Below are positions 8,673-33,270 of a DNA stretch of 33,637 bases, in pieces; positions within the stretch are counted from its first letter, which is position 1, and every line of letters begins with the position of its first letter. Below the pieces are notes generated by a model that had not been told where the DNA came from, searched no databases, and saw only the letters and a program-made list of their open reading frames with translations. Position numbers and translations under genes: made by a program. The stretch covers positions 1 to 33,637 of the forward strand of contig VXOY01000020.1 in NCBI GenBank assembly GCA_009839835.1, read 5' to 3'. Source of the stretch: Candidatus Spechtbacteria bacterium SB0662_bin_43. GTDB taxonomy: Bacteria; Patescibacteriota; Minisyncoccia; Spechtbacterales; 2-12-FULL-38-22.

Positions 8673-8742
8673 AGCGACCGTAAAACGTTTTTTGGCGGTT
8701 AGCGATAATCGGTTTAGCCCAGAAAAAACGTTTGGAGGCGCT
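8673..8742 (-). repeat. 70-bp palindromic element, copy 1 (after ychF)
   Basis: The outer arms form an imperfect inverted repeat (AGCGACCGTAAAACGTTTT with the complement of AAAACGTTTGGAGGCGCT). They enclose an asymmetric core, GGCGGTTAGCG-x-TAATCGGTTTAGCCCA. A second copy lies at 32908-32980 in opposite chromosomal orientation. Read along the upstream gene (ychF here, pnp there), both copies have the same orientation and start 20-30 bases after the stop codon. It could be a structured 3' UTR, a terminator, or a REP/MITE-like mobile element. Confidence 0.75.
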
Positions 8743-10893: not shown

Positions 10894-10920
10894 CCCCGAC
10901 TCATTCGGGGTTTTATGATG
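10894..10920 (+). repeat. Hairpin repeat, copy A
   Basis: A 27-base unit (CCCCGA-CTCAT-TCGGGG-TTTTATGATG) is repeated exactly at 10957-10983. It forms a GC stem followed by T4 on the plus strand and may terminate the tRNA-Pro transcript. A decayed inverted third copy is visible at about 10843-10858. Confidence 0.7.
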
Positions 10921-10948
10921 TAAATAGGAAGCAGGGGGTGAGGAGGTA

Positions 10949-10981
10949 TCATAAAACCCCGACTCATTCGGGGTTTTATGA
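10949..10981. terminator. Bidirectional terminator (hairpin repeat, copy B)
   Basis: TCATAAAACCCCGA pairs perfectly over 14 bases with TCGGGGTTTTATGA around a five-base loop, with a T4 tract on either strand. It lies 18 bases after the HU stop codon on the minus strand. Confidence 0.75.
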
Positions 10982-10999
10982 TGATGCCCATCAGTATGC

Positions 11000-17794: not shown

Positions 17795-17896
17795 AAGAAA
17801 AGGATTTTTACTTTTTTATACCTAAAATACCACTGCTGTACATACCATTATTTATAAAAATGAGATGGGGTATAAAAAAGTAAAAATCCTTTTCTT
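17795..17896. repeat. Perfect 28-bp inverted repeat with 46-base spacer
   Basis: Bases 17795-17822 are the exact reverse complement of 17869-17896. The arms are AT-rich (AAGAAAAGGATTTTTACTTT and onward). The spacer carries AATACCACTGCTGTACAT at 17826-17843, which recurs almost unchanged at 33096-33113. It lies between the 3' end of the pyrophosphatase-like gene and the tig promoter region. Confidence 0.8.
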
Positions 17897-24737: not shown

Positions 24738-25669
24738 TTTCACGTGAAATGATCGTCATCCAAAAAATAGTGATTATCCTCTCACAACAAGTAAAGAGAC
24801 AGTCATTCAATGAGGATTCGCAATAAATACTTCTCCTCCCGCCCCTCAATGCACAAACCAGTATCATGCTTTCACGTGAAATGTTATACCATAATCATCA
24901 CAGAAGCATCTGGGCTTAATACACCGCACATCATCTGGTCACAGAAGCATACAGGTTCAGCACTGTGTATGTTTTCACGTGAAACCTTGTTCAGTCTTTC
25001 GTATCTGCTTTCATGTGAAACTGTACCTATCATAGAAGAGAGTACGATAGAGATGATGAGAAGTAACGTATACTTTCACATGAAACTATAGCTAACGAAC
25101 ACCTAATAAAGAAAAGGGTGGTCATAAAGTATAATGCATTTTCACGTGAAATGATTGCTGGTCAATCTACAGAGACTTCATTTTTTGACACATACAACAC
25201 AACATACTACAGCACACAAACTGATGTCGTGTTTTCACGTGAAAACAAACAAGAAAGAACCTCCACAAATAAAACACTTCATATCTTCACATGAGGTACT
25301 TTTTAACGCAAAGCACTTTCATGTGAAATAATTGTCCCTATAGAAATGTCCGCGCATAGAGCCACCCTCTGCAGTTGCGTACGATGCTTTCACGTGAAAT
25401 GAAAAAGTCAAAGATACCATAACACAACACTTTCATGTGAAATGAAGAGTACGATAATAAACACTACCACGCTTCTATCATCTGACTGATAATGACAATG
25501 GTGTTGTTAAGAATAGGAACGTTTTTGCCTGAAACTTTGTTCAGTTCTTTACACCTACTTTCATGTGAAACTTTCCTAATGTTTTTGTGGTATGAATCTA
25601 CTTTCATGTGAAACCTTGATATATCACAGAAGCATATGGATTAAATCCTGTGCGTATTTTCACGTGAAA
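24738..25669. repeat. Array of parS-like centromere sites (13 good, 2 degenerate)
   Basis: The 12-mer TTTCAYRTGAAA begins at 24738, 24870, 24973, 25009, 25074, 25140, 25233, 25317, 25388, 25431, 25559, 25602 and 25658. Degenerate copies are at about 25285 and 25523. Seven have the perfect CACGTG centre; six have CATGTG or CACATG. The full parS consensus recognised by ParB/Spo0J is TGTTTCACGTGAAACA, and several copies extend to TTTTCACGTGAAAC. Spacing is irregular (36-132 bases), with AT-rich unique sequence between. No credible gene lies between 24661 and 25763. Such sites load ParB, which recruits SMC and helps to segregate the chromosome. ParB and ParA are not encoded in the window. Confidence 0.85.
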
Positions 25670-27227: not shown

Positions 27228-27672
27228 ATTCTTTCACTATAAGAGAAAAGGGTACTTATTTCAATAAACCGTATCCTATCATCAAAATGAAAAAGATGTA
27301 CTCAAATAGACCTCATCTGCAATAAGATTTAAAACCAACTATTAACAAAGAACACTGTTAATCGTAGAAAAACTATTCAATTTTTGGGTACAACAAAATA
27401 ACAAATCAATAGGCGTTTTTGCTATGAAAGGTAAGGAACGAAATAAAATGATGGTAATGATGGTGCCGTACAACTCTGCAGCTACTCAATCAACTACCGC
27501 TCCGTCGAGTGTCTGTACGAATAGAGGCATATTGCTAACACAACACGCTATACAAACAACTCTATCTATGCGGTCTGTTTTCGCTGTCTACTTCTTCTCT
27601 TTTGTGTACAACAAAAGAGCGAATCGCATAAGCGACCGAGAATATCTTCACTACACAATTAAAGAACAATAC

Positions 27673-27857
27673 ATGGGTCGATACCTGCAACTGTTCGTCA
27701 TTCGAAGTAACACCCGAGGGGGAAAGAACTATAAATGAATAGATACATGCAACCAGTCGTCATTCGTAGCACTACTCGAGAAAAAAGAACTATGAATGGG
27801 TCGATACCTGCAACTGTTCGTCATTCGAAGTAACACCCGGGAAGAAAGAACAATGAA
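27673..27857 (+). repeat. Three tandem repeats of about 62 bases
   Basis: Units start at 27673, 27735 and 27796. Each has the order ATG-x-x-TMGATACMTGCAA, CGTCATTCG, an ACHMC-CG-rich middle, and AAAGAAC near the end. Units 1 and 3 are nearly identical, while unit 2 has diverged. Each unit can encode a short M-x-R-Y-x-Q-x-x-V-I-R-S peptide, but the frames end at different places and I see no ribosome binding site. Confidence 0.75.
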
Positions 27858-32907: not shown

Positions 32908-32980
32908 AGCGACCGTAAAACGTTTTGCTGGGCTAAACCGATTACCGCTAACCGCCAGAAAAACACGTTTTACAATCGCT
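32908..32980 (+). repeat. 70-bp palindromic element, copy 2 (after pnp)
   Basis: The arms are AGCGACCGTAAAACGTTTT and the complement of AACACGTTTTACAATCGCT. The core TGGGCTAAACCGATTACCGC then TAACCGCC is the reverse complement of copy 1 at 8673-8742. Relative to pnp the copy has the same orientation as copy 1 has to ychF. Confidence 0.75.
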
Positions 32981-33065: not shown

Positions 33066-33270
33066 AAAAGAGGGTTTATACTTTTTTGTGCATACAATAC
33101 CACTACTGTATATGAGATTGTTTTTTATCAATGAACGAGGTTTAGTAAGCAACGGGTTGTTGCTGAATCTATGATTAGATGAATGTGGTGCAAAGAAGTA
33201 TAAGCCCTGAACGATTGCTGTAATCAGTTTAGTTGAGGGGCTTATACTTCTTTGCGCATACGCATTATAT
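33066..33270. repeat. Repeat cluster with an 18-bp hairpin in the gene-free stretch after pnp
   Basis: GCAAAGAAGTATAAGCCC (33190-33207) pairs perfectly with 33238-33255 around a 30-base spacer. The right arm and what follows (GGGCTTATACTTCTTTGCGC then ATAC) repeat, with changes, the stretch at 33070-33095 (GGGTTTATACTTTTTTGTGC then ATAC). Short direct repeats AATGAACGAGGTT occur at about 32998 and 33131. AATACCACTACTGTATAT at 33096-33113 matches the spacer of the inverted repeat at 17795-17896. The gene-free stretch runs from 32888 to 33369. Confidence 0.6.

Follow-up and report, generated by a model that had tools for sequence, protein, structure and literature searches.

The two palindromic hairpins found downstream of ychF and pnp in the window (the whole 33,637-nt stretch of DNA analysed here, which is part of contig 28 of its assembly) look like members of an interspersed repeat family, which we call family I, and not like a dedicated RNA signal of these two genes. 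We lean towards the view that family I is a non-autonomous, lineage-specific palindromic interspersed repeat that has spread through intergenic space and whose arms were templated at the DNA level. This view draws on about 21 copies, all of them intergenic, in mixed orientation and restricted to one genome, and on several arm classes that are each self-complementary.

The first copy lies on the forward strand at positions 8673-8742, 3' of ychF (TIGR00092), with its core, GCGGTTAGCGATAATCGGTTTAGCCCAG, at 8695-8722; the second, which forms a near-perfect stem, lies on the reverse strand at 32908-32980, 3' of pnp (TIGR03591), with its core at 32928-32955. They represent one imperfect palindrome on opposite strands, as the first-pass annotation had described, and share the 28-nt core GCGGTTAGCGRTAATCGGTTTAGCCCAG with a single difference, whereas none of 100 shuffled windows contained a match to it, even with up to three mismatches allowed. 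Both copies fold better than shuffled sequences on both strands (z -3.3 to -5.6). The hairpins start 28 nt after the stop codon of ychF and 20 nt after that of pnp, within the 20-30 bases first reported, and in both cases the core strand is antisense to the gene, so the common orientation relative to the two genes was also correctly noted. The arms do vary more than the core between the two copies; the proposal that they differ by paired changes, however, was not borne out, since direct alignment reveals indels and one-sided substitutions instead. Paired changes are confined to comparisons between distinct arm classes at other places in the genome.

To identify further copies in the 755,616-bp assembly (32 contigs, 93% complete), we used blastn together with a covariance model, and part of the genome was read directly. 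The covariance-model search proposed in the first-pass annotation did recover further copies: 17 copies were detected at E<0.01, and 4 partial or divergent loci bring the family to about 21 loci, to which fragments and many half copies must be added. They include C24:8310 and C8:7020, which are divergent but have the core GTAATCAGTTTAG exactly, as well as a copy interrupted by a second hairpin (C17:17510-17690) and the left half of an element (C30:3021). A third copy in the window, missed by the earlier reading, lies on the forward strand at 33189-33256 and shares the region 3' of pnp with the second; it has the core GATTGCTGTAATCAGTTTAG and a divergent arm class, GCAAAGAAGTATAAGCCC / GGGCTTATACTTCTTTGC, with 18 of 18 positions paired. 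Its left arm (33191-33208) has an alternative partner, 89% complementary, in an extra forward-strand arm, AGGGTTTATACTTTTTTG, at 33071-33088, and these two arms enclose a family II-like sequence.

Outside this genome, the covariance model matched none of 285 further genomes from the class, two of them of the same family, and blastn returned none in 35 relatives. Viral, phage and plasmid collections likewise held no family I match, and Rfam identified only tRNAs in the window and nothing relevant at a relaxed E-value in 15 loci. Five exact core matches across GTDB, all in coding sequence of unrelated bacteria and close to the number expected by chance, were rejected as relatives. Family I looks like a lineage-specific intergenic palindromic repeat. 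The element is absent from the orthologous 3' regions of ychF and of pnp in seven other genomes each; one relative (G002) carries, after its ychF, a member of another hairpin family of its own. As the orthologous loci lack the element and the orientation of the copies is mixed, we reject the idea that ychF and pnp have a conserved RNA motif of their own.

The family I element is about 74 bp long. Its typical ends are AGCGACCG(T/A)AAAA and (GGAGG or ACGG)TCGCT, and between them there is typically a stem that closes with CTGG/CCAG, then the inner hairpin G(G/A)TT...AATC, and a bulge, GTTTAG, on one side only. The asymmetric core of about 21 nt is conserved, with a mean pairwise identity of 0.85 compared with 0.59-0.63 for the arms, which fall into several classes that each remain self-complementary. 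Three copies combine the usual ends with quite different yet complementary middle arms (AATAAAATTATTCCTGA, GTAAAAATATCTCTGG and GCAACATTATTCCTGA), four have a wholly different arm (CAAAAAAGTATAAGCC and variants), and the M-arm class, comprising C24:8310 and C8:7020, terminates in GGGCTTATACTTTTTT, with six T at its end. Both reported copies belong to the main arm class.

Permutation of the arms indicates where their complementarity is coupled. For family I as a whole, permuted arms matched the cognate pairing in 0 of 20000 trials, a significance that is inflated by kinship among the copies, and the source of this signal is the seven divergent copies, for which the figure was 6 of 20000. The 11 main-class copies displayed no coupling, with permutations equal or better in 12705 of 20000 trials and a pairing of 28.1 for cognate arms against 28.7 for arms taken from different copies. 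Since the divergent copies pass this permutation and the main-class copies fail it, arm coupling exists between arm classes and not inside the main class that holds both reported copies.

The main rival to an interspersed repeat is a functional RNA at gene ends, that is, a 3' UTR hairpin acting as a terminator or as a block to 3' exonucleases, kept by selection for RNA pairing and, being a palindrome, able to work in both orientations. According to our gene calls, which come from a home-made codon-usage caller and are approximate, all 21 loci lie outside called genes, against 19% expected for 74-nt placements (p about 5e-16), and several copies are 6-70 nt away from a stop codon. Convergent gaps are also over-represented, with 5 of the 21 loci against 1.4 expected (p = 0.012), and two loci lie in divergent gaps. 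Stable folding, complementarity kept across the arm classes and the end of the M-arm class, which resembles an intrinsic terminator, are further points in its favor. On the other hand, several copies are 150-300 nt away from a stop codon or immediately precede a start codon, and in the 14 co-directional gaps the core is antisense in 10 and sense in 4 (p = 0.18), so that transcripts would contain the conserved core or its complement depending on the orientation. No T-tract follows the main-class stem, no terminator was called at either reported hairpin, there is no bias for G-U pairs, as discussed below, and the element is missing 3' of ychF and pnp orthologs in the other genomes compared. Weighing these points, we consider the functional 3' UTR hairpin possible but doubtful.

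Based on these gap-type and sense/antisense counts, gene 3'-end regions are mildly preferred by family I and its orientation is not fixed. The common orientation at ychF and pnp is thus a coincidence, because the orientation of the family relative to genes is mixed. The first-pass annotation had expected copies inside genes or in random orientation if the element were a neutral mobile one; none of the 21 loci lies in a gene, but the orientation is indeed mixed. Its two suggestions, a 3' UTR motif or a mobile palindrome, accordingly fare differently: the mobile, interspersed palindrome is favored and the 3' UTR motif less so, and family I copies may have an effect on mRNA ends, which we retain as a secondary possibility because of the excess of convergent gaps.

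If RNA folding were under selection, G-U should outnumber A-C among the isolated mismatches of the functional strand, and most paired changes should be transitions. Among isolated mismatches flanked by matches there was no bias of G-T over A-C, with 9 against 6 contexts in family II, the larger palindrome family described below, and 0 against 3 in family I; family II has 15 transitions and 15 transversions among its distinct paired changes. An apparent bias obtained from loosely aligned arms (37 against 14 in family II, 14 against 5 in family I) was discarded after it vanished under the isolated-mismatch filter. The pattern of mismatches and paired changes may point to DNA-level copying between arms, as weak evidence, because the counts are small, the copies related and the arm alignment automatic. 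Neither a wobble bias nor a T-tract speaks for the selection for RNA structure first proposed for the two hairpins. Cores reversed relative to the ends, as in C16:2847 of family I, where the ends are swapped relative to the core, and in L092, L094 and L102 of family II, fit recombination between arms.

Under the interspersed-repeat reading, a unit of about 74 bp would have spread between genes alongside at least two other palindrome families, presumably in the form of single-stranded DNA folded into a hairpin, with either some enzyme acting in trans or template switching during replication as the mobiliser. The complementarity of the arms would arise mainly from one arm being copied off the other, by hairpin templating or by recombination between arms that would also flip cores, and the matching would be kept without any need for the transcript to fold; DNA hairpin templating is probably its origin. 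Copies would persist most readily in intergenic positions and be mildly enriched at the 3' ends of genes; transcribed there, they may happen to serve as 3' hairpins. We infer mobility from the dispersion of the copies, because the closest genomes in the comparison are those of the same family. The search for a transposase covered PF01797 (Y1), with no match in this 93% complete assembly while the positive controls matched, and PF01609 (DDE_Tnp_1), also with no match in this genome; two full-length tyrosine recombinases are encoded, which are probably Xer. Two observations sit less easily with the interspersed repeat, namely the excess of convergent gaps and the absence of arm coupling in the main class. 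In addition, a neutral decaying repeat would not show a core more conserved than its arms, unless the core serves mobilisation or some function.

The conservation of the core whatever its orientation to genes (85% pairwise, the highest of any part of the element) would also be expected of a protein-binding site in DNA, of the BIME kind, in which a nucleoid or topology protein attaches to the core and the arms extrude as a cruciform between transcription units; the copies do lie between units, in convergent gaps more often than expected. We regard this as unlikely, given that the element is genome-specific, that no known binding consensus was identified in it and that composites and fragments occur, for which a chromosome-wide site has no need. 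Comparably unlikely, in our judgment, is a hairpin-core mobile module without a transposase of its own, in which the conserved asymmetric core would be the replicating unit and the arms would be made or replaced on site by copying one side of the stem off the other; if true, one core could reside in unrelated but well-matched stems, and hairpins could nest and share arms. Independent hairpin small RNA genes, each with its own promoter, are very improbable: a conserved core with covarying arm classes is typical of a structured RNA family, but there is no strand-specific wobble excess, no Rfam relative and no promoter call at a fixed upstream distance of either reported copy, and half copies are numerous.

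Several bacterial groups are well known to carry palindromic interspersed repeats, but among open-licence papers we found none that describes them in very small genomes of this type. As in the REP, BIME and REPIN systems with RAYT (PMC3733652, PMC3116915, PMC2817692), family I consists of many intergenic palindromic copies (21 loci), belongs to a lineage-specific family, is enriched between unidirectional and convergent genes and forms composites with other repeats. It differs in its length of about 74 bp, compared with 20-40 bp for REP, in the conservation of a central core while arms are exchanged between copies, and in lacking both a Y1 (RAYT) gene in the genome and a GTAG or CGTC tag, which occurs within 8 nt of an end in only 1 of 13 full copies; on these two grounds RAYT/REP identity was rejected. 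Bacterial MITE-type repeats such as ERIC, NEMIS/Correia, RUP and RPE (PMC2229807) resemble it in being protein-less, intergenic and lineage-restricted, with a long stem-loop and a length of about 70-200 bp. In contrast to these, family I has no TA termini, no cognate transposase within the two Pfam families searched and no consistent target-site duplication, the junctions having a direct repeat of 3-4 nt in 2 of 13 copies and of 0-1 nt otherwise. Its terminal repeats may not be fixed either: most copies have the ends AGCGACC...GGTCGCT, and at least four have others. Large repeated stem-loops near gene 3' ends (PMC1590033) are a further parallel, from which family I is distinguished by its asymmetric conserved core with different arm classes, by multi-family composites and, in the main class, by the absence of a T-tract. 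Because its ends carry neither a consistent target duplication nor a REP tag, we file family I neither as REP nor as MITE, although it resembles both in its behavior. The combination of a conserved core and exchanged arms provides a handle for telling compensatory evolution of RNA apart from templating at the DNA level, a difference that is readily overlooked if paired changes are taken to prove an RNA structure. Integron attC was considered as well and set aside, as its core sites do not seem to fit the ends conserved in family I.

Family I is not the only repeat of this kind in the genome. A palindrome census, covering 294 kb of contigs picked because of their family I copies plus 153 kb from contigs elsewhere in the assembly, detected more long-loop palindromes, and at least three families, some composite and with shared arms, occur within the 756 kb. 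Family II, a larger, tiered palindrome present at about 27 places, has outer arms TGTGAATTCCCCCTTGAAGTGYGAC / GTCGCACTTCAAGGGGGAATTCACA, ends that are not equal and, around a core of about 46 nt, the inner arms AGAAAAGGATTTTTACC...; its permuted arms matched the cognate pairing in 0 of 20000 trials. The copy in the window, at 17795-17896 on the forward strand, is of a related kind with a different core and has perfectly paired inner arms of 28 nt around a 46-nt core. In places, copies of family I directly adjoin those of family II or have arms in common with them, for example at 33071-33256. Family III, with the core ATGAGCATCCGTCTTC..., is found standing alone, and a diverged hairpin of this family is nested in the loop of the split family I copy C17:17510-17690. 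The right outer arm of family II is often followed, by eye, by TTGACA about 8 nt on (in the core sense, at L091, L094, L096, L097, L101, L104 and L110), in some cases with a -10-like box about 17 nt further on, as if the element carried or abutted a putative outward promoter. Three relatives (G001-G003) carry long-loop hairpins of their own about as densely, with different cores. Two of them of the same family, G001 (L115) and G002 (L132, L134, L136, L137), share a hairpin repeat unlike family I, with the core ACGCTGCC...CTTACGAC between TTATTCC / GGAATAA arms, one copy of which follows ychF in G002.

The window also contains repeats of other kinds. In the interval that separates the elongation factor P gene from that of a CCA-adding-enzyme-like protein, 13 parS-like palindromes (7 of TTTCACGTGAAA and 6 of TTTCATGTGAAA) are packed into 0.93 kb (24738-25669); all seven perfect parS-like sites of the genome fall in this segment, against 0.05 matches expected for the window. 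The cluster looks like a candidate ParB-type centromere with unusually many sites packed together. A tandem array of a 61-nt unit in 3.1 copies occupies 27661-27851, and at 10894-10983 the 27-nt element CCCCGACTCATTCGGGGTTTTATGATG is present as an exact duplicate 63 nt apart, each copy forming a short terminator-like hairpin.
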